Source: Streptomyces sp. NA04227 (lineage in GTDB: Bacteria > Actinomycetota > Actinomycetes > Streptomycetales > Streptomycetaceae). Taken from it: DNA of 64,000 nt. A program made the position numbers and the translations under genes. The notes below the pieces were generated by a model. That model worked only from the letters and a program-made list of their open reading frames with translations. It searched no databases and was not told the origin of the DNA. How positions within the stretch are numbered: position 1 is the first letter of the stretch; each line of letters starts with the position of its first letter. Shown here one piece after another: positions 22,333-39,220 of the stretch. The stretch lies in assembly GCF_013364195.1 (NCBI RefSeq), contig NZ_CP054918.1, positions 2,221,001-2,285,000 of the forward strand. The letters are read 5' to 3'.

Positions 22333-22515
22333 TTACAGCTCCTCCATGACGAAGTCCTCCTTGGCCGCGCCGCATTCGGGGCACTCCCAGTCGTCCGGGA
22401 TGTCCTCCCACCGGGTGCCCGGCGGGATGCCCTCCTCGGGCAGTCCCAGCTCCTCGTAGTACACCCAGCCGCACAGGAGGCACATCCATGCCCGTTTACC
22501 GGAGCGGTCGCTCAT
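22333..22515 (-). CDS. Rubredoxin
   Basis: 60-aa one-iron electron carrier. The two Cys pairs are intact: MCLLCGWVY and [12 protein letters not shown], with the usual [13 protein letters not shown] between. The ATG overlaps the stop of the preceding hydrolase (ATGA), so it is the last gene of the desaturase operon. It should feed electrons to the membrane desaturases. Rubredoxin at this position is a regular feature of bacterial polyyne clusters. Confidence 0.93.
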
Positions 22516-23378
22516 GAAATTCCTTCTTTTTCCCTGTTCGCGTGTTCGGCTACGAAGTCGGACACGGTGGCTCTGACCTCCCTGGACATGAGGATGCCGA
22601 TGTGTCCGACGCCGTGCGCCCGTTCCAGCCGGACATGCGTCAGGCCCGCCGCGATCGCCTCCGCGTCGGAGTACGGGACCATGTCGTCGTCCGGGTCGTG
22701 CAGGGTGAGCTTGGGAACGTCGAGGCCGGGGCCGAGGGCGACGGCGTCCCAGTGGCTGACCGGTACGCCGTTGCGGCGGTGCAACTCCGCGTAGACGCCC
22801 TCGACTTTGGCGCGGTTCAGCTTCAGGCCGTCGCCCTCCCAGCGTTCCAGGACCCCGCCGAGGGTGGCCGCCGGGGCGATGAACGCCATGCAGTGCAGGG
22901 CGAGCCCGGGCCGCTGGGCGGCGGCGCCGATGGAGGCGATGGTGCCCAGTGAATGGGCCACGATCACCCGGACGTCGCCGAGGGTGTCCAGGACCGCGCC
23001 GACCGCCCGGGTGTACTGGGTCATCGTGGCCTGCGAACCGGGCCGTACGCCGTGGGCGGGAGCGTCGAACGCGGCTACCCGGAAGCCGAGTTCACGCATC
23101 GGCGTGACCAGCGAGTGCATGCTGGAGCTGTCCGAGGCCCAGCCGTGCACGAGCAGTGCCGTACCGCGCGGGGACCGCTCGCCCCAGAGGTAGCCGTTCG
23201 GGGCGTCGGGGCTGTTGTCGACGGCGAACTCCCGTGCGCCGATGGGCAGTACGTTGTCCGGGCGGATGCCGAGAGTGCGCGTACTGCTGAAGACGTCCGT
23301 CGTCCAGCGCGCACCCGCCCCCGGGGCGACGGCTCCGAGGGCGGAGTGCGCGAGGCGGCGCAGGCCGCGCGCCGTCAT
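22512..23378 (-). CDS. Alpha/beta hydrolase, probable product-releasing thioesterase
   Basis: 288 aa. Oxyanion region [11 protein letters not shown], nucleophile Ser143 in [10 protein letters not shown], acid in HDPDDDMV and His in GVGHIGI form a complete triad. ATGA overlaps join it to the desaturase before and the rubredoxin after. In polyyne clusters a hydrolase in this place frees the finished chain from the ACP; that role is inferred here by position. The long apparent frame to 24557 is a shadow beyond 23378. Confidence 0.82.
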
Positions 23379-24520
23379 GCGGCCGCGCCCTTCGTGTTCT
23401 TCGTGTTCGTGGCGTTGTCGGTCCCCGGTCCTGCGTGGCCGGTGGCCACACGCGTGGGGTCGACCTTCTCGCGGGACAGGTCGGAGTAGTAGCCCGACTC
23501 GGTGTCGTAGAAGTGCAGATGGCGCACGATCCTGAACATCTGCCCGAAGCTGAACCGCTGTTCGCGGACCATGCCCGGATATGTGTCCTTCAGCGCCTGC
23601 TGGGCCTTCGGCAGGTTGTAGAAGGGGATGACCGGGGCGACGTGGTGTGCGGTGTGGATGGAGATGTTGTGGGTGAGGAAGAGCAGCCACTTCGGGTACG
23701 TGTAGTCCGTGGTGAGCAGCAGACGGCTGGCGTTGCGGGTCCAGTAGTCGGCGGTCAGGTACGGCACGTCGGAGGCGCTGTGGTGCATCAGCGTGGTGGC
23801 GCTGAACCAGGCGTGGGTGGCCAGCCACGGGGCCACGAAGTAGAGCAGGATGCCCTGCCAGCCGGTGAACCAGGCGAGCGCTGCGAGGTAGGGCAGGGCC
23901 ACCGCGGCGACGAAGGCCATCGAGCGGCGGACCTCCTTGCGCTGGCCCGCCTTCGGGTAGAAGCCGGGCCGAAAGCCGGACTCCACCCAGTAGTTGATGG
24001 TGCCGCCCCAGAAGGCCCAGGTGCGGGTGGACATGTAGACGAGCTTGTCGAGGAACGACATGCGGTCGTACATGGGGGCGGGGATGGGCCGCCAGTCGGT
24101 GTCCAGCTCCAGGTGGTTGGTGCTGGAGTGGTGCATGTTGTGGACGTGCCGCCAGGCGTGGAACGGATAGACCAGCGGCAGCAACGAGACATGCCCGATC
24201 GCGTAGTTGAGCTTGCGGGAACGGGAGAAGGATCCGTGTCCGCAGTCGTGCGCGATGCAGTGCAGTCCCCAGCCGCCGAGTCCGGCGACGATCCACAGCG
24301 GGATCCACAGCAGCCAGTGCGGCGAGAAGGCCACACCGACGATGGCTCCCGCGTACAGCGCCCAGCTCACCACGAAGCCCAGGACGCCACGAGCCGTACG
24401 CGGCTCGAAGTACTCCTTCGGTATCGCGTTCTGCAGCCGCTCGCCCTCGATGGCCTCGGACTTGAGCAGAAACGCCTCGAAGGTCTTGTCGGGTGCCGAG
24501 GGAAAGTCGAACGCTCCCAT
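23375..24520 (-). CDS. Membrane fatty acid desaturase (omega-6/DesA-like), third of the cluster
   Basis: 381-aa integral membrane di-iron desaturase/acetylenase. The His boxes are HDCGH (91-95), HNMHH (127-131) and HTAHH (289-293), with about four to six helices between. AAGGAG precedes the ATG at 24520. The box spacing is of the plant-like delta-12/omega type, different from the two SCD-type desaturases upstream, as in polyyne clusters. It should act on an acyl-ACP to add double or triple bonds near the methyl end (inference). Confidence 0.88.
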   Translation of the reverse strand: MGAFDFPSAPDKTFEAFLLKSEAIEGERLQNAIPKEYFEPRTARGVLGFVVSWALYAGAIVGVAFSPHWLLWIPLWIVAGLGGWGLHCIAHDCGHGSFSRSRKLNYAIGHVSLLPLVYPFHAWRHVHNMHHSSTNHLELDTDWRPIPAPMYDRMSFLDKLVYMSTRTWAFWGGTINYWVESGFRPGFYPKAGQRKEVRRSMAFVAAVALPYLAALAWFTGWQGILLYFVAPWLATHAWFSATTLMHHSASDVPYLTADYWTRNASRLLLTTDYTYPKWLLFLTHNISIHTAHHVAPVIPFYNLPKAQQALKDTYPGMVREQRFSFGQMFRIVRHLHFYDTESGYYSDLSREKVDPTRVATGHAGPGTDNATNTKNTKGAAA

Positions 24521-24592
24521 GGGTGACCGTCTCCTTGTTTGAAGGACCCTTCGCCAACTACGGGACAGGTATTGCCTGTTGGGGCGCCGGCA

Positions 24593-24877
24593 CTAGAGCT
24601 TGAGCTCCTTGGCCAGGTACCCGCTCAGCTCGTCGATGGACTGGTACTCGTAGAGCAGTCCGGGCGACAGACGGCGTTCGACGACCTTCTCCAGGGCGCC
24701 GGAGACCTGGACGGCCACGCGGGAGTCGAGGCCGTAGGACTCGAAGGTCTTCTGGGTGTCGATCTCGTCGCGCGGCACCTCGATGTGCATGGCCAGGTAG
24801 TCGGCCAGCCACTCCTTGAGCGATTCCTCGGTGAGCTTGCCCTCGGGCTTGGCAACCGTCTTCTTGCGCTTGAACAC
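24593..24877 (-). CDS. Acyl carrier protein
   Basis: 94 aa from a GTG with CAGGAG upstream. The phosphopantetheine site is GLDSRVAV (Ser52), where DSR replaces the usual DSL/DSM. The N-terminus is basic (FKRKKTVAKPEGK) and helices follow the ACP pattern (LTEESLKEWLADYLA, YQSIDELSGYLAKEL). It lies 114 bp after the second desaturase and 72 bp before the third, within the cluster. It should carry the fatty chain loaded by the AMP ligase. A dedicated carrier next to desaturases distinguishes polyyne/alkyne pathways from ordinary lipid desaturation. Confidence 0.88.
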   Translation of the reverse strand: MFKRKKTVAKPEGKLTEESLKEWLADYLAMHIEVPRDEIDTQKTFESYGLDSRVAVQVSGALEKVVERRLSPGLLYEYQSIDELSGYLAKELKL

Positions 24878-24991
24878 CTGTTGCTCCTGTCGGCGAGTGT
24901 CACGGTGAAGGCTGTGCGGGGGGGGCGGCGGGCCGGTCGTGCGAGGGCCTGCCGCGGGGGGTGAGGTGGCGCTGTGAGGTGGCGCAGGCGC

Positions 24992-25975
24992 TCAAGTGCC
25001 TTGGCTGGCAGCTGCCTTGGCCTTCTTCTCCCTGCGTTTGGCGATGGTCGCCTTGTCCGGCTCGCGCAGGCTCCAGACGACGCCCGTCCTGCCGAGTCCG
25101 GCGATCAGCCAGCCGCTGAGGTCCGGCTCGTACCAGGTCACGCCGTGTCGGAAGGAGCCGGGGAAGGCGTGGTGGTTGTTCTGCAGGCCCTCGCCGAAGG
25201 TGAGGACGGCGACGGGCCAGTTGTTGGCGCTCTTGTCCTCGTTGTCGAAGGGCCGTCCGCCGAAGGCGTGGCAGACCGAACCGACGCACCAGGCCGCCTG
25301 GTTGGCGACGAAGATGCGGGCCAGACCGCCGAAGACCAGGCCGGTGACGAGGGACATCCAGGTCTGCTGGACCGCGAAGGAGATCACCATCGGGATGACC
25401 AGGCCGAGGGTCACCCACTGCGGGTAGGTGCGGTTGTAGAACATCAGGCGGCGGTTGCGCAGGACGTCCGGGCCGAACACGGTCCACTTGGTGGTCTCCG
25501 CGCTGAGCATCCAGGGCATGTGGGCGTACCACAGTCCGCGCATCCGGCCGCGGAAGGTGCGGCCGTGCAGGTTGGGCGAGTGCGGGTCGCCCTCCTGGTC
25601 GCTGAAGCGGTGGTGCCTGCGGTGGGTGGTCACCCAGAACATCAGCGGGCCCTGGGCGCCCATCGAACCGGTGATCATCATGACGCCCTCGAACCAGGCC
25701 GAGGTCTTGAACGCCTTGTGCGCCAGATAGCGGTGGAAGCCGACCGTGATGCCGAACATGTGCACGAAGTACATGGCGGCGAAGAGCCACAGGTCGGTCG
25801 CCGAGAACTGCCCGGTGGCCAGGAAGTACACGGCGGCCGCGGTGCCGAGCAGGGGCAGGGTCATGGTGGTCAGGGCCGAGAAACGCTTGATCCTGAGGCT
25901 TACGGGATCAAGCCGGACGATCGCGGCGGACAGTGCGCCGGAACCGCCCGGGCCGACGTCGGCGGCAGAGGTCAT
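24992..25975 (-). CDS. SCD-type fatty acid desaturase, second of the cluster
   Basis: 327-aa membrane di-iron desaturase. First boxes HRYLAH (81-86) and HRRHH (118-122) are intact; the third reads QNNHH (265-269), with Gln where most family members have His (HNNHH). The ATG overlaps the stop of the first desaturase (ATGA). The basic C-terminus (KRREKKAKAAA) is cytoplasmic. The Gln substitution might alter iron binding or mark a subgroup with acetylenase chemistry. Confidence 0.88.
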   Translation of the reverse strand: MTSAADVGPGGSGALSAAIVRLDPVSLRIKRFSALTTMTLPLLGTAAAVYFLATGQFSATDLWLFAAMYFVHMFGITVGFHRYLAHKAFKTSAWFEGVMMITGSMGAQGPLMFWVTTHRRHHRFSDQEGDPHSPNLHGRTFRGRMRGLWYAHMPWMLSAETTKWTVFGPDVLRNRRLMFYNRTYPQWVTLGLVIPMVISFAVQQTWMSLVTGLVFGGLARIFVANQAAWCVGSVCHAFGGRPFDNEDKSANNWPVAVLTFGEGLQNNHHAFPGSFRHGVTWYEPDLSGWLIAGLGRTGVVWSLREPDKATIAKRREKKAKAAASQGT

Positions 25976-26919
25976 CGCCTCGCTCCTTTCTCTTTGATCC
26001 GTTCGCGGTCGGGATAGCGCGCGTCGGAGACCAGGCCCACGCGGTCCAGGGCCCGGATGAACGCACCGGTCGGGTCGATCTGCCACAGTCCGTGCCGGTT
26101 GTGGGCGAGCGCGGGCCGGGCGTGGTGGTTGTTGTGCCAGGAGCCGCCCACCGAAAAGGCCGCGAGCGGCGCGAAGTTACGGCTGTTGTCGCGGGTGCGG
26201 TACGGGCGGTTGCCGATGAGGTGGCCGACCGAGTTGACGCCCCAGGTGACGTGGTCGAGCAGGAAGATCCGGGCCAGGCCGCCCCACAGGAAGCCGCTCG
26301 TCGCGGCCTTGGGGTCGCCGCCGCTGAGGGCGAGGCCGAGCAGGGCGGGCAGCAGGAGGCCGCCGAGTACCCACAGGAAGTAGTACTGGTTCAGGCGCAT
26401 CACCAGCCGGTCGCGCACCAGGTCGGGGACGCGCTTGCTCCAGTTCTGCCGCTGGACCACGAACAGCCAGCCGACGTGTCCGTGCCAGAAGCCGCGCACC
26501 TTGCCCTTGAAGCCGGTGCCGAGCGGGCGCGGCGAGTGCGGGTCGCCGTCCTTGTCGGTGAAGGCGTGGTGCTGGCGGTGGGTGGCGACCCAGAAGAGGA
26601 CCGGGCCCTGGGCGGCCATGCTGCCCGCGATGCCCCACAGCGAGGTCACCACCGGGCCCGCCGAGAAGGACTTGTGGGAGAAGAAGCGGTGGAAGCCGCC
26701 TTCGACGCCGAGCGAGGTGACGACGTAGAAGAAGAGGAGGAGGGTGGCGTCGATCCAGCTGAAGCCGTAGGTGACGGCCCAGACGACGGCGGCGGCGAAG
26801 CCGAGGGTGGGCAGGCCCACGGTGAGGTAGGCGAGCCGCCGGGCCGCCGTGTCGATGTCGGCGGGTTCGGGGGCCGCCGCCGCGGCCGCCTCGTCGGCCC
26901 CTGTGTGTGCAGTGGTCAT
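25972..26919 (-). CDS. SCD-type fatty acid desaturase, first of the cluster
   Basis: 315-aa membrane di-iron desaturase with all three boxes: HRFFSH (77-82), HRQHH (114-118) and HNNHH (262-266). About four helices are visible. It is joined by ATGA overlaps to the AMP ligase before and the second desaturase after. It is related to delta-9 stearoyl desaturases; with a dedicated ACP in the cluster the substrate is more likely acyl-ACP than acyl-CoA (inference). Confidence 0.9.
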   Translation of the reverse strand: MTTAHTGADEAAAAAAPEPADIDTAARRLAYLTVGLPTLGFAAAVVWAVTYGFSWIDATLLLFFYVVTSLGVEGGFHRFFSHKSFSAGPVVTSLWGIAGSMAAQGPVLFWVATHRQHHAFTDKDGDPHSPRPLGTGFKGKVRGFWHGHVGWLFVVQRQNWSKRVPDLVRDRLVMRLNQYYFLWVLGGLLLPALLGLALSGGDPKAATSGFLWGGLARIFLLDHVTWGVNSVGHLIGNRPYRTRDNSRNFAPLAAFSVGGSWHNNHHARPALAHNRHGLWQIDPTGAFIRALDRVGLVSDARYPDRERIKEKGARR

Positions 26920-28685
26920 GACACCGGCACCTTTTCCGTCGAGGGTCGGAAGGCCTTGATGCTGCCGTCGAGATAGGCGGCCCTGGTCGCGCGGCGACGG
27001 ACCTTGCCGCTGGTCGTCATGAGGATGGTTCCGGGCGGGCCGAAGTAGAGCCGGGCAGGGCGGACGCCGTGCTCGGCGGTGACCGCGGCGGTGACCAGGT
27101 CGCGCAGTTCGCTCTCGCTGCTCTCGAACTCCCGTGGCGTGCCCCGGAATTCGGCGACGACTACCACGTCCTCCCCCTCGTCGCGCGCGCTCGGCACGGA
27201 GAAGGCGACGCTACGGCGCAGCAGTTCGTGGGCCCGCTCCACGGACTCCTCGATGTCCTGCGGGTAGAGGTTGCGCCCGGCCACGATGATGACGTCCTTG
27301 AGGCGGCCGGTGACGTACAGCTCGCCGTCGAGCAGGAAGCCGAGGTCGCCGGTGCGCAGGAAGCCGGGACCCTTGGGCTTGCCGGCGAGCCGGGCGTCGA
27401 AGGTGCTCGCGCTCAGCTCGGGCCGGTTCAGATAGCCCTGGGCAACGTTGGCACCGCTCACCCAGACCTCGCCGACTCGGCCTGCCGGCACGGGAGTCGC
27501 GGTGTCCGGGTCGACGACCACGACCCGGTGCCGGTTGGCGAAGACGCCGCAGCTGACGACACCGATCGCGCCCTCGGTGCCCGGGCCCGGAACCCGGACC
27601 GCCTCGCCGAGTTCGAGGGCGGCCTTGTCCAGCCACTCGGTGCGTACGGGCGTCTTCTCCTGTTTGCCGGTGACGAAGAGCGTGGCCTCGGCGAGTCCGT
27701 AACAGGGGATGATCGCGTCGGGGTTGAAGCCGGCGCTCGTACCGAAGCGCTCGTTGAAGCGGTCCAGGGTGGCGCCGGAGACCGGTTCGCTACCGCAGAA
27801 GACCTGGCGCAGGGTGCTGAGGTCCAGGGTGGCCAGTTCCTCGTCGGTGATCTGGGTGGCGCACATGTCGAAGGCGAAGTTGGGGCCGACGCTGATGGTC
27901 ACCTTGTGGTCGGTGATCGCCTTGAGCCAGCGGTAGGGGTCCTGCACGAAATGGACTGGCGAGAGCATGACAAGAGGCCAGCCCCCGTGCACGGCGAGCA
28001 GGATCGTGCCCATCAGGCCCATGTCGTGGTACGGGGGCAGCCAGGAGCAGCCGACCCGGTCCGCCTCGAAGCCCATGTGCTCGTCGAGCACCCGGCAGTT
28101 GCTCACCAGGTTGTCGTGGCTGAGCACGATGCCCTTGGGTTCGCCGGTGGAGCCCGAGCTGTACTGGAGCAGGGCCTGCTCGGCGAGCCGGACCGGCCCG
28201 GGGGTGGCGCTCGGGCGGGTCTCGAAGAAGTCGGCCTCGGGAAAGATCCACCGCAACTTCTCTTCGCCGACCGGCAGTTGCTCCTCGAACTGGCCCACCT
28301 GACCGGCGAAGCGCGGGTCGGTGAGGACGGCGCCGGGGGCGCAGTCCTCCACGATCGAGACGAAGCGCTGCATCGCGCGGCGGCCGATGGGCGGGAAGGA
28401 CGGGACGGCGGTGCAGCCCGCCCGCAGGATGCCGAACAGGCCTGCCACGTAGTCGAGTCCGGGGTCGAGCGCGAGCACGACCCGGCCTCGCGTGATGCCG
28501 CGCTCGGCGAGCTGCGCGGCCACCGCGGCCGCGCGCTCGGAGAGTTGCGCGTAGCTCCAGTCCACGATCTGCTCGCTGGTGCCGTCCGGCAGGAAGCGGA
28601 AGGCGAGCGCATCGGGTTGGTTCTGTGCACGCTGCTCGAGGATCTCAGGCAGCGAGGTTCCCAGGGACGTGCTTGACGACTCCAC
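26916..28685 (-). CDS. Fatty acyl-AMP ligase, cluster starter enzyme
   Basis: 589-aa adenylate-forming enzyme. The P-loop is YSSGSTGEPKG (175-185), followed by SWLPPYHDMGLMG, CYGLAE, FLRTGDLGFL and a C-terminal catalytic Lys region (TTSGKVRRR). The long mid-domain and PPYHDMG are typical of fatty acyl-AMP ligases that load ACPs rather than make CoA esters. The start is a GTG at 28685 with AAAGG about 11 nt upstream; it is the only start giving the family N-terminus. Its stop overlaps the first desaturase (ATGA). The 218-bp leader contains TAGGGCAC twice. Confidence 0.88.
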   Translation of the reverse strand: MESSSTSLGTSLPEILEQRAQNQPDALAFRFLPDGTSEQIVDWSYAQLSERAAAVAAQLAERGITRGRVVLALDPGLDYVAGLFGILRAGCTAVPSFPPIGRRAMQRFVSIVEDCAPGAVLTDPRFAGQVGQFEEQLPVGEEKLRWIFPEADFFETRPSATPGPVRLAEQALLQYSSGSTGEPKGIVLSHDNLVSNCRVLDEHMGFEADRVGCSWLPPYHDMGLMGTILLAVHGGWPLVMLSPVHFVQDPYRWLKAITDHKVTISVGPNFAFDMCATQITDEELATLDLSTLRQVFCGSEPVSGATLDRFNERFGTSAGFNPDAIIPCYGLAEATLFVTGKQEKTPVRTEWLDKAALELGEAVRVPGPGTEGAIGVVSCGVFANRHRVVVVDPDTATPVPAGRVGEVWVSGANVAQGYLNRPELSASTFDARLAGKPKGPGFLRTGDLGFLLDGELYVTGRLKDVIIVAGRNLYPQDIEESVERAHELLRRSVAFSVPSARDEGEDVVVVAEFRGTPREFESSESELRDLVTAAVTAEHGVRPARLYFGPPGTILMTTSGKVRRRATRAAYLDGSIKAFRPSTEKVPVS

Positions 28686-28903
28686 AGACTTACGGCCTTT
28701 CAGCTGGGTCCGACTGAGACTGACGGAACTGCTGCTGTGCCCTACGAGCTGCTGGCTGCCGATGAGAAGCGTTGGTGCCCTATGAACGCTGTGAACGGTT
28801 CGCGCGGTGTTGAGTTGTGAGTTGGGGTGGTGCGCTGGGGTTGTGCGGTGAGTCGTGGGTTGCGGTTGTGAGGCGGCCGCTTGCCCGGCGGCGCGCCCCG
28901 GAC

Positions 28904-29707
28904 TCAGATCTTGCGGACCACGCGGAGCTGGTGCGCGGTGCCGAGGTGGGTGCCGTCGAGCCCCCAGGCGTCGATCTGTTCGTCGATCCAGCCGCCGGAG
29001 GTGGCCGCCAGGGTGCTCGCGCGGAGCAGGATCCAGGGCGAGGTCGCGGTGGCCAGGCCCTCGCCGGGGCGGACGGTCAGTTCGACGGTCGGTACGAAGA
29101 CGAGTTCCGAGAGCATCGCCGCGTAGGAGGGGGCGAGTGCGTCCATCAGGAAGACGAAGCGCGCGGCGTCGGGCGCCTCGTCGTCCTCCAGGAGGCGGAT
29201 CCAGGCGACGAGTTCGGGCTCGGGCCCACCCGCGTAGGGGCGCGCCGAGCCGACCGGCCGGATCTCCATGCTCTGCGAGATCGGCACGAACTCCTTGGGA
29301 ATGGCGAAGACCTCGCAGTCCTCGGGCGGAGGTGCCTGCGGGGGCTTCGGTGCGACAAGGGGCCACCGCTGCTCGCCGGGCACCGAGAAGACACCCGTGG
29401 CCTCCAGGTGCACGCCCTTGGGTGACTCGGCCTTGGCGCTCACCGTGGAACTGGTCCGGCCGGAACGCACCAGCGCGCTCTCGATACCGAAACCGCCGTC
29501 GATGATCCGCCCGAACCGTCCGGTGATGCTCTGAAGTTGTAGCCCTGGCACATGCGCCGACATAGCGGAGGAAAGCATTCCGAGCGCGAGCCCGCCGTGA
29601 AATCCCCCGAAGCCTTTCAAATGCTCCGCCGTTTCGACCCACTCACCGGCAGGCTTACGCAGCAGCATTCCAGGTCGAATTGATTCCTGAATATGCTCAC
29701 TAGACAT
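28904..29707 (-). CDS. TesB-like acyl-CoA thioesterase domain protein
   Basis: 267 aa from ATG 29707. The N-terminal half resembles a hot-dog thioesterase (FGGFHGGLALGMLSSAM, then LQLQSITGRFGRIIDGG) and the C-terminal half a second copy (DALAPSYAAML, WIDEQIDAWGLDGTHLGTA), the double hot-dog layout of TesB. It is upstream of and co-directional with the ligase operon, 218 bp away, so it is probably part of the cluster. It could supply free fatty acid for the ligase or clear misloaded chains. TAGGCT 7 nt before the ATG, with no Shine-Dalgarno, suggests a leaderless message. Confidence 0.75.
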   Translation of the reverse strand: MSSEHIQESIRPGMLLRKPAGEWVETAEHLKGFGGFHGGLALGMLSSAMSAHVPGLQLQSITGRFGRIIDGGFGIESALVRSGRTSSTVSAKAESPKGVHLEATGVFSVPGEQRWPLVAPKPPQAPPPEDCEVFAIPKEFVPISQSMEIRPVGSARPYAGGPEPELVAWIRLLEDDEAPDAARFVFLMDALAPSYAAMLSELVFVPTVELTVRPGEGLATATSPWILLRASTLAATSGGWIDEQIDAWGLDGTHLGTAHQLRVVRKI

Positions 29708-30544: not shown

Positions 30545-31300
30545 TCAGGTCGCGAGCAGGACGACGGACGCGGTCAGACCCACGACGACGATCAGGCCGC
30601 GCAGTACGACCGGCGGCAGCTTGCGGCCCACGCGCGCGCCGACGAGGCCGCCGATGGTGGAGCCGACCGCGATCACCCCCGCTGCCCACCAGTCGACGTC
30701 GGCGACACAGACGAAGACGACGGCGGCGACCCCGTTGACGATGCTGGCGAGGACGTTCTTCACGGCGTTCAGACGCTGGAGGTCGTCCTTGAGGAAACTG
30801 CCGAACAGGCCCATCAGGAGCACCCCTTGGGCCGCCCCGAAGTACCCGCCGTACACGCCCGCCGCGGCCACCCCGCACCACATGGGCACGCCGCCGTCCT
30901 TCTCGCCGTGGTTCTCGCGCTTGGCCAGCCACTTGTTGAGGCGGGGCTGGAGGACCACCAGGAGGCAGGCGAGCAGGATGAGCGCGGGGACCACCGCGTC
31001 GAAGGTGCTGGACGGCAGCTGGAGCAGGAGTATCGCGCCGATGAGCCCGCCGATCAGGGAGCCCGAGCCGAAGATCAGGACCCGCCTGAGCTGTCCCTTG
31101 AGTTCGCGCCGGTAGCCGTAGGCCGCGCTCAGCGAGCCCGGAACGAGTCCGATGTTGTTGGAGACGTTGGCGAGAACCGGGGAGTACCCGAAGGCGAGCA
31201 GCGTCGGGAAGGTGATCAGGGTTCCCGAGCCGACCATGGCGTTGATGCCCCCGGCGGCCACGCTGGCGGCCCCGATGGCCACTGCCTCGATCGCGTCCAC
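30545..31300 (-). CDS. TauE/SafE-family sulfite/anion exporter
   Basis: 251-aa integral membrane protein with about eight helices in two halves. The repeated signature is visible as GGINAMVGSGTLITFPTLL near the N-terminus and GVYGGYFGAAQGVLLM in the middle. The GTG at 31300 has GGAAGG 7 nt upstream and is preferred over the upstream GTG at 31330. The family exports sulfite, sulfoacetate or other organic anions. It is divergent from a LysR gene, which may control it. Confidence 0.85.
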   Translation of the reverse strand: MDAIEAVAIGAASVAAGGINAMVGSGTLITFPTLLAFGYSPVLANVSNNIGLVPGSLSAAYGYRRELKGQLRRVLIFGSGSLIGGLIGAILLLQLPSSTFDAVVPALILLACLLVVLQPRLNKWLAKRENHGEKDGGVPMWCGVAAAGVYGGYFGAAQGVLLMGLFGSFLKDDLQRLNAVKNVLASIVNGVAAVVFVCVADVDWWAAGVIAVGSTIGGLVGARVGRKLPPVVLRGLIVVVGLTASVVLLAT

Positions 31301-31554
31301 CCGTACACCTTCCGTCGCTGTGTGCCGCACTCGTGCCGGACGGTCGTGGTCCGTGCGCGATGCCGCAGGTCACCGTACCCGCCGAGGCCCCCACAGGTCT
31401 GTGTGCTGCACAACTAGTCTCGAATCAGATCCCGGATCGGCCGCCGCGCGGGGCAGTTGGGGCGCCGCCGGATACGTACGCGCGCGTGCGCGCCGCCGCA
31501 CGTCGCCTTGGCCCCTGCCTCACGTTCTGCAATCGAGATCAGGTTTCCGCGTCC

Positions 31555-31591: not shown

Positions 31592-32503
31592 GTGACCCTA
31601 GACGACCTGAGGGTGTTCGCGGCGGTGTGCAGGGTTCGAAATCTGAGTGCGGTGGCGCGTGAGATGAACTGCAGCCAGTCCGCCGTGAGTCAGCACGTCA
31701 GACGGCTGGAGAAGGAGGTCGGCCTGCCGCTGGTGGAGCGCAGGCCCCGCGGGGTGGTGCCCACCTCGGCGGGCGAGATCCTCTATCGCAGCGCGGCCGA
31801 GGGCCTCACCGCGCTCAGCGACGGTCTGCGGCAGATCGAGGAGCTGCGCACCGGCCGGTCGGGGACCGTCGCGGTCGCCGCGGGCTCCGCCTCGATACGG
31901 CATTTCATGGGTGGCGCCGTGCAGGCCTTCCGGAAGCGGTATCCGCAGGTGGAGCTGGAGTTCCGGCCGGAGACCACCAGCGAGCAGTGCTTGCGTGCGC
32001 TGCGCGCAGGGGCGGTGGATCTGGCCTGGATCATGTTCACCGCGCCCGCGCCGGGCCTGGAGCTGCGGCCGGTCACCGAACTGGACTGGGTGCTCGCCGT
32101 ACGCGCGGACGATCCGCTCGCCCGGCTCGGCAGTCTGCGCCCGGCGGACCTGGTCCGGGACCGGCTGATCCATCCGCCCTGCGGCCCCGACGACGGCTCC
32201 GGGCAACTGGATCCGCCCGAACGCCAGGCCGCCATCGACTGGGAGACGGCCCTGCTGCTGACCGAACTGGGCCTCGGGCACGCACTGGTGCCCGCGGTGG
32301 CCGGTCTGCACGAGCGGTCCGACGGGCTGGTCCTGCTGCCACTGGAGGGTGTCGCCCCGCTCACCGTGGGGTGGGCGGCCCGGCAGTGGTCGGCGTTGCC
32401 GCCGCCGTCGCGCGACTTCGCCGAGCAGGTCGCGAAGCTGGCGGGTGAGTCGAAGCTCGCCACCGGCGGCCCGCCCGCACAACCAGCCGAGTGGGGACGG
32501 TAG
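31592..32503 (+). CDS. LysR-family transcriptional regulator
   Basis: 303 aa. The N-terminal winged HTH (LRVFAAVCRVRNLSAVARE, then CSQSAVSQHVRRLEKEVG) is followed by a LysR substrate-binding domain starting at GTVAVAAGSAS. It uses a GTG start. Divergent from the TauE/SafE permease, the common arrangement for a LysR regulator and its target. The C-terminal 15 residues are Gly/Pro-rich and extra. The ligand is unknown. Confidence 0.9.
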   Translation: MTLDDLRVFAAVCRVRNLSAVAREMNCSQSAVSQHVRRLEKEVGLPLVERRPRGVVPTSAGEILYRSAAEGLTALSDGLRQIEELRTGRSGTVAVAAGSASIRHFMGGAVQAFRKRYPQVELEFRPETTSEQCLRALRAGAVDLAWIMFTAPAPGLELRPVTELDWVLAVRADDPLARLGSLRPADLVRDRLIHPPCGPDDGSGQLDPPERQAAIDWETALLLTELGLGHALVPAVAGLHERSDGLVLLPLEGVAPLTVGWAARQWSALPPPSRDFAEQVAKLAGESKLATGGPPAQPAEWGR

Positions 32504-32543: not shown

Positions 32544-33008
32544 TCAGCTCTCCCCGACCCGGACCGGCTCGGTCAGCGCTCCCCTGCCGCTGGGCGAGTG
32601 GGCGCCTTCGCGGGCCTTCTCGCCGCAGTGTCTGCACACCACCTCGGGTTCCAGGGTGTTGCCACAGGAGTGCTGCCAACGCAGCGGCGGGTCCTCGGGG
32701 TTGAGGTGTTTGTCGCCCCATTGCATCAGGGTGATCAGTACGTCGCACAGCTCGGCACCGGCGGGGGTGAGGTGGTACTCGTAGCGCGGCGGCCGGGTGC
32801 TGTACAGCTCGCGGCGTACCGCGCCCACGGCTTCCAGCTTGCGCAGCCGGACGGTGAGGATGTCGCGCGAGGTGCCGGTGTTGCGGACGATCTGGTCGAA
32901 CCGGCGTACCCCATGGCTGAGTTCGCGTACCACGAGAAGGGTCCAGCGCTCGCCCACCAGGTCGAGCGCGTCGGCGATGGAGCACTCTCGGGGGATGGGT
33001 TTCGACAT
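32544..33008 (-). CDS. HxlR-family transcriptional regulator
   Basis: 154 aa from ATG 33008 (MSKPIPRECSI). The HxlR winged helix is clear (DALDLVGERWTLLVVREL, RFDQIVRNTGTSRDILTVRL, then EYHLTPAGAEL). A C-terminal extension has CGNTLEPEVVCRHCGEKA with Cys pairs that could bind zinc, a known variant. TACGAT lies 6 nt before the ATG. It runs in the same direction as the thiolase upstream, so its target is not obvious. Confidence 0.88.
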   Translation of the reverse strand: MSKPIPRECSIADALDLVGERWTLLVVRELSHGVRRFDQIVRNTGTSRDILTVRLRKLEAVGAVRRELYSTRPPRYEYHLTPAGAELCDVLITLMQWGDKHLNPEDPPLRWQHSCGNTLEPEVVCRHCGEKAREGAHSPSGRGALTEPVRVGES

Positions 33009-33177
33009 GAATCCATCGTAGGGCAGTGAGTTGTGTTTTCGAATGCTCTCGACGGACACCCCTTGCCTTCCGGCCGTGCACTCGATCAGGGCGTGTTCTG
33101 ACGGCCCCGGACCGGTCCACCCGGACTCTGCCGGAACTCCGGCCCCCTCCGGCGCCCGCCCGGGTCACGGCCGCTGC

Positions 33178-34341
33178 TCACAGCCTCTCGATGATCGTGG
33201 CGTTGGCGACGCCGCCGGACTCGGACATCGTCTGGAGGCCGTAACGGGCGCCTCTGTCCTCCAGGTTGTGCAGCAGCGTGGTCATCACACGGGCACCGCT
33301 GCCGCCCAGCGGATGGCCGAGGGCGATGGCGCCGCCGCGTACGTTGAGCTGGTCGAAGTCGACGCCGGTCTCGCGCTGCCAGGCGAGGACGACGGCGGCG
33401 AAGGCCTCGTTGACCTCGAACAGGTCGATGTCCGCCAGGGTGAGCCCGCCCCGGTCCAGGACCCGTTCGGTCGCGGGGATGATCGCGGTGAGCATCAGCA
33501 GCGGGTCGTCCCCGGCGACCGCGAAGGAGTGGAAGCGGGCGCGCGGGCGCAGGCCGAGCCGTTCGGCCACGTCCTCCCCCATGATGAGCAGGGCCGCGGC
33601 GCCGTCGCCCACGGAGGAGGAGTTGCCCGCGGTGATGTGCCAGCGGATCTCCGGGAAGCGCTCCTCCAACTCCGGCTCGTAGTAGGCGGGTTGGAGTGAG
33701 GCCAGCGCCTCGGCACTGGTGTCGGGGCGGACCGCCTCGTCGGGCATCCCGGTCCAGATCACCTCACGGTCGAATTCGCCGGCCTCCCATGCCGCCGCCG
33801 CCCTGCGGTGCGAGACCAGGGCGTAGGCGTCCTGCTCGGCGCGGCTCACCTTCCAGCGGGCGGCGATGAGTTCGGCGCTGATGCCGTGGCCGACCAGGCC
33901 TTCGGAGTAGCGGCTCGCGTGCCGGGAGCCGTAGGGGTCGGCGTGCCGGGCGTGGCCGGAGTTCTTCGGTACGCGGGACATCGACTCCACCCCGCAGGCG
34001 ACCACGATGTCGTACGCGCCGCTGATGACGCCCTGGGCCGCGATGTGCGCGGCCTGCTGGGAGGAGCCGCACTGGCGGTCGACGGTCATCCCGGGCACGG
34101 TCTGCGGGAGTCCGGCGGCGAGCACCGCGTTGCGGGTGATGTTGAGCGACTGCTCGCCGACCTGGCTGACGCAGCCGCCGACCACGTCGTCGATCAACTC
34201 AGGGTCGAGGTCGGCGCGTTGGACCAGCTCCTGGAGGGTGCGGGCGAGCAGGTCGACGGGATGGGTCTCGTGCAGCGCCCCGGTGGGGCTGCCCCTGCCC
34301 ACCGGCGTGCGCACCGCTTCGACGATCACGGCGTCCCGCAC
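33178..34341 (-). CDS. Thiolase-family acetyl-CoA acyltransferase, second active-site Cys missing
   Basis: 387-aa thiolase fold protein. The nucleophile Cys91 (DRQCGSSQQA), NEAFA and GGAIALGHPLGGSGAR are intact. The C-terminal motif, usually Cys-x-Gly-Gly (for example TMCEGGG), reads TMSESGG, so the second catalytic Cys is Ser. It could still condense or cleave poorly, or do another acyl transfer. The start is the second of two GTG codons (34341), which has better spacing from AGGAGG. It is a single gene between HxlR and the P450 operon. Confidence 0.82.
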   Translation of the reverse strand: MRDAVIVEAVRTPVGRGSPTGALHETHPVDLLARTLQELVQRADLDPELIDDVVGGCVSQVGEQSLNITRNAVLAAGLPQTVPGMTVDRQCGSSQQAAHIAAQGVISGAYDIVVACGVESMSRVPKNSGHARHADPYGSRHASRYSEGLVGHGISAELIAARWKVSRAEQDAYALVSHRRAAAAWEAGEFDREVIWTGMPDEAVRPDTSAEALASLQPAYYEPELEERFPEIRWHITAGNSSSVGDGAAALLIMGEDVAERLGLRPRARFHSFAVAGDDPLLMLTAIIPATERVLDRGGLTLADIDLFEVNEAFAAVVLAWQRETGVDFDQLNVRGGAIALGHPLGGSGARVMTTLLHNLEDRGARYGLQTMSESGGVANATIIERL

Positions 34342-34344
34342 CAC

Positions 34345-34991
34345 AGCCTCCTCGGCCCGGCGACGCCGTCACATCCGGCGCCACTGCTACGTCATGAGAC
34401 CGGAGGGCCGCTCGGCCACCGCCGCGCGCCTCCGGGCTCCGGGCCCCCGTCACAGTTCCGCTTGCCGGGGCGGGAGCGGGTTCCGGCGGCCCCGGCCGGC
34501 GACCGTCGCGGCCGCCCAACTCCTTTTCAGGGCCACCGAGTTGCCCTTTCCAACGCACTCGGCCCGTCGACCGTATCAATCGTTAGTTTGATTCCACAAC
34601 CCTGACCGGGTGAGCTTTTCGCACACAGGTGCGCACGGAAGCACACGCCGGAGTGCGCGCCATGCCGCGAGCGCTGGGCGCACCACACCTGTGAAACCCG
34701 CCCGACTCGCCCTCGTAAAGCCTTCGTCAGCAGGCGAGACACCCCTTGTCCGGCCGGAAGTGATGTTGTTATGTTCATGCCTTCTGGATCCGTTTGAAGT
34801 TCCAACCCACTGGACAGGACACTTCTCCAGGACCGGCCGCGCCCGGTCCGCGGCGATCAGCGGCACCCGCCGACCCGCATCGGCAATCACTCACCACACC
34901 CCACGACCGCACCCGCCCCCGAGCCGTGTGCGGTCGTCAACTCCGACTTCGTCAGGGCGCACGGCCCGGCGATACGACATCCGGGAGTGAA
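34345..34991. other. 650-bp gene-free region upstream of the P450
   Basis: I see no supported gene. It contains an inverted repeat, ATCAA-N8-TTGAT at 34575-34592, in a locally A/T-rich patch, which is a candidate regulator site for the P450 operon or for the divergent thiolase. Confidence 0.5.
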
Positions 34992-36230
34992 GTGACGACT
35001 CAGAGCGACGCCCTGGCAGATCCGCTGGACATCATGGGCCGCCTGCTGGCCCCGGCCGGAAAGCAGAACCCGTACCCGCTGTACGAGGAGATGCGCGCAC
35101 ACGGCTCCCTGGTCGACGTGGCCTCGGGCACGCACGTCTTCGCCACCGGCTACGCCGAGTGCTCGCGGGCCCTGCGCGAACCCGACCTGCTCTCCACCGA
35201 CGGCGCGGTGCAGGACCTCAAGCTGCCCGGCTGGCGCGAGCACTCCTCGTGGCGGTGGCTGACCCGGAACATGCTGTTCTCCAACGACCCGACCCACGAG
35301 CGCCAGCGCCGCTTCTTCGGCAGCGCCTTCTCCGCGCGCGCCGTGGCGGGCCGCCGGGCGATGATCGAGCGCCTGTCCGACGAGGCCGTCCGGCACGTGG
35401 CCCAACTCGGCCGGGACGGCGCCGAGATCGACCTGGTCCCCGAACTCACCTACCGCTTCGCCACCGCCGTCATCGGCGAACTCCTCGGCGTACCGCCGAA
35501 GGACCAGGCCCCGATGCGCGCCGGGATCGGCGACATCACCCTGGCCCTGGACCCGATCGCCGACATGAGCCAACTGGAGCCGGGCGACGCGGCGATGGAC
35601 ACCTTCGCCGAGTACTTCTACGAGCTGGTCGCCCAGCGCCGTGCCGAGCCGCGCGAGGACCTCACCAGTACCTGGGTGAAGGTCTGCGACGACAGCGGCG
35701 ACATCAGCGAGGAGGAACTGGTCGCCAACCTGATGCTGTTCCTGGTCGCGGCGGCCGAGGCCCCGATGGACCTGTTCAGCAACACGGTCCGGCTCGCCCT
35801 GGAACACCCCGAGCACGCCGAGCGGCTGCGCGCGGACCCCGCGTACGCGGCCGGTTTCGTCGACGAGACGCTGCGCTACGAGCCCGCCGTGCACGCCCTG
35901 AACCGGGTCGCCGCCAAGGATATGGAGTTCTTCGGCCTGAAGATCACCGAAGGCACCGCGGTCACCCTGATGCTGGGCGCGGGCAACCGCGACCCGCAGC
36001 GCTACCCGGACCCGGCGGCCTTCGACCCGCAGCGCACGGACATCCAGCCGCTGACCTTCAGCGCGGGCGCGCACTACTGTCTGGGCGCCAATGTGGCCCG
36101 GATGTCCGCCGAGACGATGGTCCCCCAACTCCTGCGCGAGATCCCGCGGTTGAAGCTCACCGAGGAAGCCGTCTGGCGCGATCAGCTCGTCCAGCGCGGC
36201 CAGGCGCGAATGCTCGCCACGACGGTCTGA
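34992..36230 (+). CDS. Cytochrome P450 with altered I-helix
   Basis: 412-aa soluble P450 from a GTG with GGGAG upstream. Haem motif FSAGAHYCLG with Cys363 and the ExxR motif (ETLR, 292-295) are intact. The I-helix reads FLVAAAEAPMD (about 250-260): the acid is kept but the conserved Thr of the acid-alcohol pair is Ala, followed by Pro. P450s without this Thr, such as EryF, may use substrate-assisted oxygen activation. It is followed 223 bp later by an alpha/beta-hydrolase-fold gene. The P450 could act on the product of the desaturase cluster 5 kb away, but nothing shows this. Confidence 0.88.
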   Translation: MTTQSDALADPLDIMGRLLAPAGKQNPYPLYEEMRAHGSLVDVASGTHVFATGYAECSRALREPDLLSTDGAVQDLKLPGWREHSSWRWLTRNMLFSNDPTHERQRRFFGSAFSARAVAGRRAMIERLSDEAVRHVAQLGRDGAEIDLVPELTYRFATAVIGELLGVPPKDQAPMRAGIGDITLALDPIADMSQLEPGDAAMDTFAEYFYELVAQRRAEPREDLTSTWVKVCDDSGDISEEELVANLMLFLVAAAEAPMDLFSNTVRLALEHPEHAERLRADPAYAAGFVDETLRYEPAVHALNRVAAKDMEFFGLKITEGTAVTLMLGAGNRDPQRYPDPAAFDPQRTDIQPLTFSAGAHYCLGANVARMSAETMVPQLLREIPRLKLTEEAVWRDQLVQRGQARMLATTV

Positions 36231-36453: not shown

Positions 36454-37350
36454 GTGCCCAGTAACTCCGAGGTACCCGGCAACGCCGAGCTCGCCTCCTT
36501 GCTGGACGGCGACTTCACCAGTGAGACCGCCGAGGTCAACGGCGTACGACTGCACTATGTGCGGGGCGGGCAGGGAGACCCGCTCTTCCTGCTGCCCGGC
36601 TGGCCCGAGACCTGGTGGGAGTACCGCAAGGTCATGCCCGCTCTGGCGCGGCGGTTCACGGTGCACGCGATCGACATCCGCGGCATGGGCGGCTCCGCGA
36701 AACCGGAGTCCGGGTTCGAGAAGAAGTCGATGGCCGCGGACATCCGGGCGCTCGCCGCGCACATCGGATACGAGCGGATCAGCATCGCCGGGCACGGCAT
36801 CGGTTCGATGGTCGCGTACGCCTTCGCGGCGAACCACCCCGAGGCGACCGACAAGCTGGTCATGCTCAACACCACGCACATAGACGAGAGTTACTACGGA
36901 TTCACGCTGATGCCCCGGCCCGGCACCCCGGGTCCGCACCGCTGGTGGCTGGCCTTCAACACCGTGGAGGGCTTCCCGGAGAAGGTGCTCGCGCACAACT
37001 ACCGCCCGATGACGGACTTCATGTTCGACCTGAGCCTGCTGAACCCGGGCGCCGTGGGCGAGTTCGACCGCCGGGTCTACGCCGAGGCGTACTCCTCCCC
37101 CGCCGCGGTACGCGCCAGCTCCGGCTGGTTCAAGACCTACCAGCAGGACATCGCGGACTTCGCCTCGTACGAGAAGATCCGGGTCCCGGTCCTCGGCCTC
37201 GCGTACGGCGGCTTCTACGCGTACATGAGTGAGGTGCTGCCGCGGCACGGTGTGGACGTGCGCGTCGCGGAGATCACCGACAGCCGCAACTATCTCGTCG
37301 AGGAACAGCCCGAGCAGGTGACGCACCATCTGCTGGAGTTCCTCGGCTGA
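36454..37350 (+). CDS. Epoxide-hydrolase-like fold protein without a catalytic triad
   Basis: 298 aa from a GTG with AAGGAG 8 nt upstream. The fold is clearly epoxide-hydrolase/haloalkane-dehalogenase-like (LPGWPETWWEYRKVMPAL, then DIRGMGGSAKPES). But the nucleophile elbow is GHGIG (113-117), so Gly sits where Asp or Ser should be; the C-terminal GH-type His region is DSRNYLVEEQP with no His; and no acid is seen after YGG. HGxP is PGWP. It is probably not a hydrolase; a lyase, isomerase or binding role is possible. It follows the P450 gene. Confidence 0.82.
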   Translation: MPSNSEVPGNAELASLLDGDFTSETAEVNGVRLHYVRGGQGDPLFLLPGWPETWWEYRKVMPALARRFTVHAIDIRGMGGSAKPESGFEKKSMAADIRALAAHIGYERISIAGHGIGSMVAYAFAANHPEATDKLVMLNTTHIDESYYGFTLMPRPGTPGPHRWWLAFNTVEGFPEKVLAHNYRPMTDFMFDLSLLNPGAVGEFDRRVYAEAYSSPAAVRASSGWFKTYQQDIADFASYEKIRVPVLGLAYGGFYAYMSEVLPRHGVDVRVAEITDSRNYLVEEQPEQVTHHLLEFLG

Positions 37351-37575: not shown

Positions 37576-39036
37576 TCAGCTCTTGGCAGCGGGTTCGGTG
37601 GACGGTTTGGCGGCCGGTGCGGCGCCCGGTTTGGTGGCGCGGAGCAGGAGCAGGCAGCTGAGTCCGGCGGCGAGGGTGACCGCGGCGGTGAACCACCAGC
37701 CGTTGTCGAAGGAGTCGGCCACCTCGTGCGGCCCGGGGGTGCCGAGTACGGCGACCAGTCCGGACACCCCGATCACACCGCCGGTCTGGCGGGCCATGGT
37801 GACGGCGGCCGACCCGGTGGAGAAGCTGGCCGGGGGCACCTTGCTGAGCGCCGCGCCGATCAGGGTCGGCATGGCGAAGCAGACGCCGACGCCGGTGAGC
37901 AGCATGCCGGGCAGCAGGCCGAGTACGTAGTCGTGGTCGGTGACATCGAGCGCGGCGATCCACCAGCCGATGCCGACCGCGAACAGCACACAGCCGACGG
38001 CCGCCACCACTCCGGCACCCAGCCGGGCCGAGAGCTTGCCCGCGTACGGGGTGAGCAGCGGGACCATCATCGGGCCCGGGCTGATCGCGAGGCCGGTCTC
38101 CAGGGCGGACCAGCCCCAGACGTCCTGGCACCACAGGGTGGCCGAGAGCAGCATCGCGCTGAAGGCCACCGCGAACACCAGGTTGGCCAGCATGGCCGGG
38201 CTCATGGCGGGGAGTTTGAGCAGGCCGAGCGGGAAGACCGGGCTCGGGTGGCTCGCGGAGCGCCGGGTGAACAGGGCCACCAGGACCACCGAGGCGGCCA
38301 GGGTGCCGAGCGTGGAGGCCGTGCCCCAGCCCCAGTCGGTGCCCTTGACCAGGCCGAGCGCCAGCGCGCCGATGCCGAGGGTGAGCAGGACGGCGCCGAG
38401 GTAGTCGACCCGGCCCACCTCGGTGCGGCGCGGGGTGTCCGCGATGATCTTCCGTCCGGCGAGCACCGCGGCGATGCCCACGGGGACGTTGATCAGGAAG
38501 ATCCAGCGCCAGTCGAGTTCGGTGAGCGCACCGCCGATCACCGGTCCGAGCGCGGCGGCCAGTCCGCTGACCGCCGCCCAGTTGCGTACGGCGGCGGGCC
38601 GCTGCTCGGGCGGGGCCACACTCAGCAGGATGCCGAGCGAGGAGGGGATCAGCATCGCCGCGCCCACGGCCTGGAGGACCCGGAAGCCGACCAGGGACCA
38701 GACCTCGGGGGCCACCGCACACAGCACGGAGGCGACGGTGAACAGCGCGACTCCCTGGAGATAGGCGCGCTTCGAGCCGAGCCGGTCGGCGTAGCTGCCC
38801 GCGGGGACCAAGAGCGCCGCGAAGACCACCGAGTAGGCGTTGAGCACCCAGGACAGCGAGGACAGGGAGGCGCCGTCGAAGTCGGTGGCGATGTCCGGAA
38901 GGGCGACGTTGACGACGAAGAGGTCGAGGTTCGACATCGCGACGCCTGCGGCGACGATGAGGAAAACGCGTCGGTAGTGGGCCGCGGCGGCCGCCGGTGT
39001 CTTCTCCCCGACGCCTGGGGCTGCTTGCTGGGACAT
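37576..39036 (-). CDS. MFS drug exporter, DHA2 (14-helix) type
   Basis: 486-aa multidrug-type proton antiporter. Motif A variant (GSYADRLGSKRAYLQG), motif B region (GFRVLQAVGAAMLIPSSL) and motif C (LGPVIGGALTELDWRWIFLINVP) fit the DHA2/EmrB family with 14 helices. ATG 39036 (MSQQAAPG) has AAGGA upstream. A perfect palindrome lies 185 bp upstream. It may export a product of the nearby P450 pair or of the desaturase cluster; this is inference from position only. Confidence 0.9.
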   Translation of the reverse strand: MSQQAAPGVGEKTPAAAAAHYRRVFLIVAAGVAMSNLDLFVVNVALPDIATDFDGASLSSLSWVLNAYSVVFAALLVPAGSYADRLGSKRAYLQGVALFTVASVLCAVAPEVWSLVGFRVLQAVGAAMLIPSSLGILLSVAPPEQRPAAVRNWAAVSGLAAALGPVIGGALTELDWRWIFLINVPVGIAAVLAGRKIIADTPRRTEVGRVDYLGAVLLTLGIGALALGLVKGTDWGWGTASTLGTLAASVVLVALFTRRSASHPSPVFPLGLLKLPAMSPAMLANLVFAVAFSAMLLSATLWCQDVWGWSALETGLAISPGPMMVPLLTPYAGKLSARLGAGVVAAVGCVLFAVGIGWWIAALDVTDHDYVLGLLPGMLLTGVGVCFAMPTLIGAALSKVPPASFSTGSAAVTMARQTGGVIGVSGLVAVLGTPGPHEVADSFDNGWWFTAAVTLAAGLSCLLLLRATKPGAAPAAKPSTEPAAKS

Positions 39037-39220
39037 GATCCTTGGTCTCAATTCTCTCGGGATGACGCTTGGTTCATGTGGTTCATGGCAAGGACGGCCC
39101 TCGGGCCTGGGTCGCGGGGCGGCGGTGGGGCGGCGGCGTCGGCGCCCCGTACGGAACTGTTCGGCTCGGCTGTGTCCGGTCCGGTTCGGTTCGGTTCGGA
39201 TCGGTTCGGATCACCTCGGC

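Follow-up and report, generated by a model that had tools for sequence, protein, structure and literature searches.

We analysed a 64,000-nucleotide stretch of the genome of Streptomyces sp. NA04227 (contig NZ_CP054918.1, positions 2,221,001 to 2,285,000), which is called the window below. Its minus strand carries an operon encoding a TesB-like thioesterase, a fatty acyl-AMP ligase (FAAL), two desaturases of the SCD type, an acyl carrier protein (ACP), a third desaturase of the omega type, an alpha/beta hydrolase and a rubredoxin. A preliminary description made from the DNA letters had proposed that these genes form a polyyne or terminal-alkyne cluster. Polyynes are reactive fatty acids with several triple bonds; they are potent, unstable and often antifungal. 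The locus is most probably (we put the probability at about 0.87) a polyyne biosynthetic cluster of the actinobacterial clade described without products by Mullins et al. in 2021. Taken as a whole, the preliminary description was partly confirmed.

Core operon and its desaturases

All eight genes first described were found at their places on the minus strand, with intact reading frames and a family match for each (Table 1). ATGA overlaps are indeed present at the FAAL/desaturase 1, desaturase 1/desaturase 2, desaturase 3/hydrolase and hydrolase/rubredoxin junctions, but there are four of them and not five. The other junctions are gaps of 218 nt (TesB to FAAL), 114 nt (desaturase 2 to ACP) and 72 nt (ACP to desaturase 3). 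The span 22333–29707 first assigned to the cluster holds the core, but it leaves out accessory genes at 32544–39051 that recur beside the same core in other genomes.

Table 1. Genes of the window assigned to the core operon or lying next to it
Feature	Position	Strand	Evidence or remark
TesB-like acyl-CoA thioesterase (4HBT_3/4HBT_3C)	28904..29707	-	Pfam; first gene of the core operon
FAAL, JamA-like	26916..28685	-	AMP-binding E 1.3e-67; NCBIfam fatty-acid--AMP ligases E 4e-132; start codon uncertain
Desaturase 1, SCD/DesA type, HNNHH third box	25972..26919	-	family match; tree clade with polyyne clusters
Desaturase 2, SCD/DesA type, QNNHH third box	24992..25975	-	family match; tree clade
Dedicated ACP, JamC-like, GTG start	24593..24877	-	PP-binding E 6.6e-12
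Desaturase 3, omega/FA_desaturase type, CayE/PgnH-like	23375..24520	-	FA_desaturase E 6.7e-35
Alpha/beta hydrolase, the thioesterase of the core set (H/TE)	22512..23378	-	Abhydrolase
Rubredoxin, presumably the electron donor to the desaturases	22333..22515	-	Rubredoxin E 1.6e-21
TauE/SafE-family membrane protein, probably outside the conserved cluster	30545..31330	-	0/23 actinobacterial full-core loci
LysR-type regulator, probably outside the conserved cluster	31592..32503	+	0/23 actinobacterial full-core loci
HxlR-family regulator	32544..33059	-	HxlR E 4e-25; beside the thiolase
FadA-type thiolase, candidate self-protection gene	33178..34344	-	Thiolase_N/C
Cytochrome P450, likely tailoring oxygenase	34992..36230	+	p450 E 2e-28; haem motif FSAGAHYCLG; reading frame opens at 34794, likely GTG start at 34992
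Pseudo-epoxide hydrolase, Cif-like alpha/beta fold	36454..37350	+	PDB 7clz/6kxh/6kxr E about 1e-93; reading frame opens at 36364, likely GTG start at 36454
MFS transporter, candidate exporter	37576..39051	-	MFS_1 E 7e-43

The polyyne core order given by Lin et al. 2022 (PMC9098870) is FAAL-2xFAD-ACP-FAD-H/TE-Rd, where FAD is a fatty acid desaturase, H/TE the hydrolase or thioesterase and Rd rubredoxin. The gene order in the window is identical. In the seven-gene definition of Mullins et al. (PMC8406139; both papers are cited here for parts of their text), homologues of JamABC (FAAL, desaturase and ACP) occur together with two additional desaturases that have homologues in known clusters, and a thioesterase/hydrolase and a rubredoxin adjoin them. 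All of these were found in the window. The core order is also the same in the Pseudomonas protegens, Collimonas and Burkholderia loci that we compared. The FAAL is 45% identical to that of P. protegens and 50% to that of the Burkholderia latens cluster. Against both species, identity is 53–59% for the ACP, 43–49% for the alpha/beta hydrolase at the same position and 61–66% for the rubredoxin. Desaturase 1 is 57% identical to its P. protegens counterpart, and the E values against P. protegens, computed for one small target, are 1e-102, 7e-121 and 5e-147 for desaturases 1, 2 and 3.

A tree of 91 SCD-type desaturases was built by a quick method with SH-aLRT support only, and several long branches were flagged in it. 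Desaturase 1 of the window is one of 26 cluster desaturases in a starred set that includes those of Collimonas, Xenorhabdus and Burkholderia; a wider starred set of 30 adds P. protegens. Support for the desaturase 1 group overall (32 rows, some on long branches) is only 48. Desaturase 2 belongs to a starred set of 33 with Collimonas, Xenorhabdus, Burkholderia and P. protegens. Nine ordinary Streptomyces desaturases form their own separate clade (100*). Thus, desaturases 1 and 2 group with polyyne clusters and not with ordinary lipid desaturases, which, together with gene content and order, supports the polyyne reading of the preliminary description. Desaturase 3 is 56% identical to its counterpart in P. 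protegens, 66% in B. latens and 65% in Collimonas. It was assigned to the polyyne group by identity alone, because the two FA_desaturase paralogues of the same genome gave only partial matches to it (E 0.002 or worse) and are too distant to root a tree.

In the alignment with SCD1 (4ymk, 4zyo), the glutamine of the QNNHH box of desaturase 2 (at residue 265) stands at the histidine of EGFHNYHH, which we take to be a di-iron ligand. Front-end desaturases likewise carry glutamine at this position. The preliminary description had noted this glutamine as unexpected. The residue is real; it is typical rather than odd, since all 120 listed homologues of desaturase 2 carry QNNHH. Among the tree rows, the third box has histidine in 32/32 cluster copies of desaturase 1 and glutamine in 35/35 of desaturase 2; this last count is biased, as the genome scan described below used QNNHHAF among its two search patterns, while the count of 120 is unbiased. 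Glutamine is not exclusive to polyyne clusters and occurs in 4 of 24 ordinary or distant tree rows, one of them cyanobacterial. It had been suggested that the glutamine and the TesB-like gene may mark a different product. We rejected this idea: both are standard for the clade, the TesB-like gene being found in 22 of 23 actinobacterial loci. Outside the actinobacteria, Burkholderia stagnalis and Burkholderia sp. SRS-46 (L084 and L086, at about 3400–5400) have a TesB-like gene (44–46%) and, next to it, a FadA-like thiolase (43%), both upstream of the FAAL; the other fetched Burkholderia clusters differ.

Distribution of the core among genomes

Desaturase 2 served as the query against 295 Streptomyces genomes. 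Twelve of them, the window's own included, have a match at 66–100% identity and more than 480 bits. The best match in each of the other 283 is below 235 bits (36–41% identity where listed) and is an ordinary desaturase, which argues that the gene arrangement is not due to chance. Eight of the twelve genomes have the full core: the window genome, G174, G030, G285, G003, G009, G060 and G241. The FAAL of G174 was matched as two pieces, and a frameshift is possible there. G125 and G062 have a P450 where the hydrolase and rubredoxin otherwise stand, G252 is without desaturase 3 and the hydrolase, and G213 shows no more than desaturase 2, a rubredoxin and a distant FAAL.

We also scanned GTDB genomes with the desaturase 2 alignment and obtained 333 relatives. 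The best 80, for which organism names were given, include 23 actinobacterial and 17 proteobacterial full-core loci, taken here as those with the FAAL, desaturases 1 and 2, the ACP, desaturase 3 and the hydrolase at set identity thresholds. The 23 actinobacterial loci (both copies of Streptomyces griseofuscus counted) hold a rubredoxin in 20 cases, TesB in 22, a P450 at 40% identity or more in 19, an MFS gene in 18, an epoxide-hydrolase-like gene in 9, a thiolase of the window type in 6, a second thiolase in 3 and HxlR in 5. In the 17 proteobacterial loci, we found a rubredoxin in 17, TesB in 2, MFS in 4 and the remaining accessory genes in none at the thresholds used. The accessory counts are lower bounds, because no flank was longer than 10 kb and some contigs stop before that. 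In six further actinobacterial loci, a P450 is present but the hydrolase and rubredoxin are not.

Since SCD-type desaturases are common, and each of the 283 cluster-free genomes has a weaker match, the operon could in principle serve the desaturation of membrane or storage lipids. We regard this as very improbable: the desaturases fall into separate clades, they occur in only 12/295 genomes, and a dedicated FAAL and ACP accompany them. It is also improbable, though less so, that the operon is a JamABC-type starter cassette that passes a mono-alkyne acyl chain to a polyketide synthase (PKS) or nonribosomal peptide synthetase (NRPS) and makes no free polyyne. The FAAL, desaturase and ACP do correspond to the JamABC core, and parts of the polyyne set apparently serve other pathways, as judged from the partial sets of Streptomyces cyaneus and of a PKS cluster in Streptomyces longispororuber. 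However, the window has the published polyyne order with all three desaturases, hydrolase and rubredoxin and a thioesterase besides, and neither PKS nor NRPS was found among the 39 open reading frames scanned, which are part of those in the window.

The partial sets have the following composition. In S. cyaneus (L073), the order is FAAL, desaturase 1, desaturase 2, ACP and rubredoxin, with no match to desaturase 3 or the hydrolase; a second FAAL-like gene lies on the opposite strand, with an aminotransferase and a ketosynthase nearby. In S. longispororuber (L090, 9959–10942), a lone QNNHH desaturase, 67% identical to desaturase 2 of the window, stands with a rubredoxin, and the surroundings contain a distant FAAL, a ketosynthase and a reducing PKS with a methyltransferase. 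A Streptosporangium locus (L076) has desaturase 2 and a rubredoxin without the rest of the set. It is possible that a single desaturase installs the alkyne in these last two loci. The sets of S. longispororuber and S. cyaneus keep both rubredoxin and desaturase 2, which suggests that rubredoxin may serve desaturase 2 in particular.

S. griseofuscus (NZ_CP051006.1; L071 and L072) has two copies of the cluster in opposite orientation near opposite ends of the chromosome record; they match the window almost equally well, and the pattern is as from terminal inverted repeats. In Streptomyces sp. ADI95-16, a linear megaplasmid (L060, NZ_CP033582.1 215332–252396) carries this cluster together with P450 and MFS genes; on its flanks are pabB and genes for DAHP synthase, an AMP-binding protein, a monooxygenase and an aminotransferase. 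Six further plasmid records, five of them from Streptomyces goshikiensis and the other from Streptomyces sp. Mg1, contain a matching desaturase 3 (81%).

Accessory genes: a pseudo-epoxide hydrolase and thiolases

The cluster of the window probably extends to 39051, as the HxlR, thiolase, P450, alpha/beta hydrolase and MFS genes recur in related clusters. Streptomyces sp. ISL-10 (G030) and G174 share one arrangement: HxlR, thiolase, MFS, P450, epoxide-hydrolase-like gene, TesB, FAAL and onward. In the window, the first five of these genes are rearranged, with LysR and TauE in between. These two genes were rejected as conserved parts of the cluster, as at 50% identity neither was found in any of the 23 actinobacterial loci with a full core. 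Beyond the MFS gene, at 39427–44245, lie a gene of the AMP-binding acyl-CoA ligase type, a TetR gene and an acyl-CoA dehydrogenase gene, which have only weak or partial matches near the 11 related Streptomyces clusters. The gene at 58699–60654 on the minus strand encodes an aromatic amino acid lyase (PF00221, E 2e-182) that is not known to be related to the cluster.

The best matches of the protein paired with the P450 are PDB 7clz, 6kxh and 6kxr, followed by epoxide hydrolases of the Cif type. We take these three entries to be structures of Alp1U of kinamycin/fluostatin chemistry. Alp1U is described as an epoxide hydrolase in the part of PMC9391479 consulted, which names none of the three entries. 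The alignment shows that in the window protein the Asp of GHDIG is replaced by Gly and the His before YLPEE by Asn. It turned out that all 12 distinct polyyne-linked copies examined (10 in clusters and 2 in genomes G060 and G241) have the same Gly and Asn (GHGIG, RNY); the second S. griseofuscus copy (L072) and a spurious row of Streptomyces somaliensis (31%) were left out of this count. Among the 295 Streptomyces genomes there are 33 matches. Six are at 68% identity or more, and all of them are in genomes with polyyne desaturase 2 (6/12 versus 0/283). Twenty-four of the remaining 27 matches were examined, and all 24 keep the catalytic Asp and His. The Fisher values for this contrast and for the thiolase contrast below (3/12 versus 1/283) ignore genome kinship and are rough. 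An AlphaFold2 model of the protein from nine close rows had a mean pLDDT of 43, too poor for a fold search.

It is improbable that this protein is a working epoxide hydrolase that yields a diol. Its similarity to solved proteins of the epoxide hydrolase family is strong, but the nucleophile Asp and the His are lost in every polyyne-linked copy examined and kept in the 24 other matches examined. The loss is conserved and tracks the polyyne pathway, which argues for a new, non-hydrolytic role; the loss itself looks new. The function of such an inactivated epoxide hydrolase next to a P450 is a question open to experiment.

The thiolase of the window has orthologues (70–77%) beside seven other actinobacterial polyyne clusters, two of which are from Actinomadura, and is 48% identical to a paralogue in its own genome. 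A second thiolase is present in four Streptomyces clusters (ISL-10, G174, phyllanthi and ureilyticus). These four form a starred clade (98*) beside the acetyl-CoA-acetyltransferase-type paralogue of the window genome, apart from the Burkholderia orthologues of MasL, the thiolase of the Massilia polyyne cluster. They adjoin the core, and two of the four stand directly after the rubredoxin, as in B. latens. In B. latens, Nafp2 and Bp9142, a MasL-type gene immediately follows the rubredoxin, and that of B. latens matches the MasL structure 7EI3 with E 2.5e-141. Since there are two classes, and the second thiolases of Streptomyces stand apart from the Burkholderia orthologues of MasL, thiolases appear to have been recruited into polyyne clusters several times. 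HxlR accompanies the thiolase in L062, L088, L111, L113 and G174; it occurs without a thiolase in L061 and G285, and L080 and L083 have a thiolase without HxlR at the thresholds used. We rejected the idea that the thiolases of polyyne clusters form a single cluster-specific clade: such a label needs 7 changes on the tree, at least 5 of them forced by starred branches.

In thiolases, two cysteines and a histidine have catalytic roles. The window thiolase keeps the nucleophile Cys and the His, and its C-terminal catalytic Cys is replaced by Ser (codon TCC). This Ser is unique to the window among the 120 listed closest sequences, the other 119 of which have Cys. The protein also differs at four more columns that are invariant in eight other cluster thiolases. 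With the catalytic Cys lost, the window thiolase may be decaying; alternatively, it may serve as a decoy, with the reactive Cys retained.

Several observations weigh against the wider reading of these accessory genes. LysR and TauE, which are absent from related clusters, separate the P450, the epoxide-hydrolase-like gene and the thiolase from the core; therefore, membership of these three genes rests on synteny elsewhere. In G060 and G241, the pseudo-epoxide hydrolase gene lies on another contig with no other cluster-gene matches in the 20 kb fetched (in G060 it is flanked by peptidase genes), and in 14/23 actinobacterial loci with a full core no copy lies within the flank. The off-cluster genes weaken strict linkage but not co-occurrence. 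The window-type thiolase is found within 10 kb in only 6/23 of these loci, and 5/8 full-core sample genomes have no thiolase within about 20 kb. Its family is widespread (121/295 Streptomyces genomes at E 1e-130), and includes many members for which no neighbouring polyyne cluster is known, and the cluster thiolases are not one clade. A thiolase at 77% identity or more was found in G157, which has no polyyne desaturase 2; no HxlR match was present in its 20 kb. To these points we add the possible decay of the window thiolase.

It remains a serious alternative, somewhat below even odds, that the thiolase is a chain-shortening enzyme of the beta-oxidation type or an unrelated neighbour and has no part in self-protection. 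This would agree with its FadA type, its paralogue in the same genome and its broad family, and also with the FadA-like thiolase that adjoins TesB in B. stagnalis and SRS-46. However, the gene recurs beside clusters of both Streptomyces and Actinomadura in differing arrangements and is paired with HxlR in 4 of the 6 thiolase loci of the 23. At 77% or more, it occurs in 3/12 genomes with polyyne desaturase 2 versus 1/283 others. The second thiolases of four Streptomyces clusters are of the acetyl-CoA acetyltransferase type, to which MasL belongs, and the window copy lacks the C-terminal Cys.

Proposed pathway and comparison with known systems

Gene set, order, phylogeny and co-occurrence were read from sequence; the core chemistry is taken from published knockouts in other bacteria. 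By analogy with the homologues knocked out in pgn, cay and mas, the FAAL would adenylate a fatty acid and load it onto the ACP. In the known cases the acid is C16 or C18 (PMC9098870). The two SCD-type desaturases and the omega-type desaturase would then convert successive single bonds to conjugated triple bonds, including a terminal alkyne, with electrons presumably fed by the rubredoxin, and the alpha/beta hydrolase would free the chain from the ACP. The polyyne is abolished by knockout of desaturases in pgn, of desaturases or the thioesterase in cay, and of the FAAL, desaturases or the H/TE in mas, where loss of the rubredoxin lowers it (PMC8406139, PMC9098870). Further steps are our proposal. 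The TesB-like enzyme may act on the thioester before or after chain release, the P450 and the epoxide-hydrolase-like protein may oxygenate or reshape the free polyyne, and the MFS protein may export it. The HxlR-controlled thiolase may protect the producer, as terminal polyynes alkylate the active-site cysteines of thiolases.

We advance one combined idea tentatively and consider it rather doubtful: that the P450 and the former epoxide hydrolase finish actinobacterial polyynes non-hydrolytically and that host thiolases were repeatedly recruited as decoys. The former hydrolase would hold or reshape the oxygenated polyyne, for example by isomerisation, intramolecular ring closure, or as a carrier or protecting protein. 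The decoy thiolase of the window would have lost its catalytic Cys and kept the reactive one. It can be tested whether, outside Proteobacteria too, polyynes generally target thiolases and producers use thiolases to protect themselves. The window has a complete cluster in a single-contig genome, with close relatives in named strains such as Streptomyces sp. ISL-10, S. hygroscopicus NBRC 3401 and S. malaysiense MUSC 136; therefore, a direct link between genes and product can be made.

The cluster type and its Streptomyces clade are already published. According to the part of PMC8406139 cited, no actinobacterial polyyne had been tied to a gene cluster by 2021. In the open-licence literature, supplements aside, we found neither a Streptomyces polyyne product linked to such a cluster nor a thiolase or pseudo-epoxide hydrolase in an actinobacterial polyyne cluster. 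The text examined of PMC8406139, supplements aside, does not contain TesB, the pseudo-epoxide hydrolase, the thiolase or HxlR. The recurrence of two thiolase classes would extend the idea of MasL self-resistance to Actinobacteria, and this looks new.

The actinobacterial clade of Mullins et al. (PMC8406139) is dominated by Streptomyces and has the seven-gene set, likewise found in the window; its subset with a P450 and without thioesterase and rubredoxin resembles our six further actinobacterial loci. MasL, the acetyl-CoA acetyltransferase of Massilia (PDB 7EI3), is a proven polyyne target and resistance gene to which the polyyne binds at Cys90 (PMC9098870, the main text of which mentions neither Streptomyces nor words starting with Actino). 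Its gene stands beside the polyyne core, as does the thiolase gene within the window cluster. However, the window thiolase is of the FadA type and is not an orthologue of MasL, a biosynthetic type II thiolase. The P. protegens cluster is reported, in the part of PMC12016544 cited, without a thiolase gene of the MasL kind. Alp1U and Cif-type epoxide hydrolases share the fold family and overall sequence with the window protein but keep the catalytic Asp and His that the 12 polyyne-linked copies examined have lost. The pgn (protegencin), cay (caryoynencin), ccn (cepacin), col (collimonin) and mas (massilin) clusters share the core order with the window. In the fetched loci of P. protegens, Collimonas and Burkholderia (cluster names assigned from species and gene order, with no cay or mas locus knowingly included), desaturases 1 and 2 belong to the same clades as those of the window. 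To the core of these five known clusters, the window adds the TesB-like gene, the P450 with the pseudo-epoxide hydrolase, and the FadA-type thiolase with HxlR.

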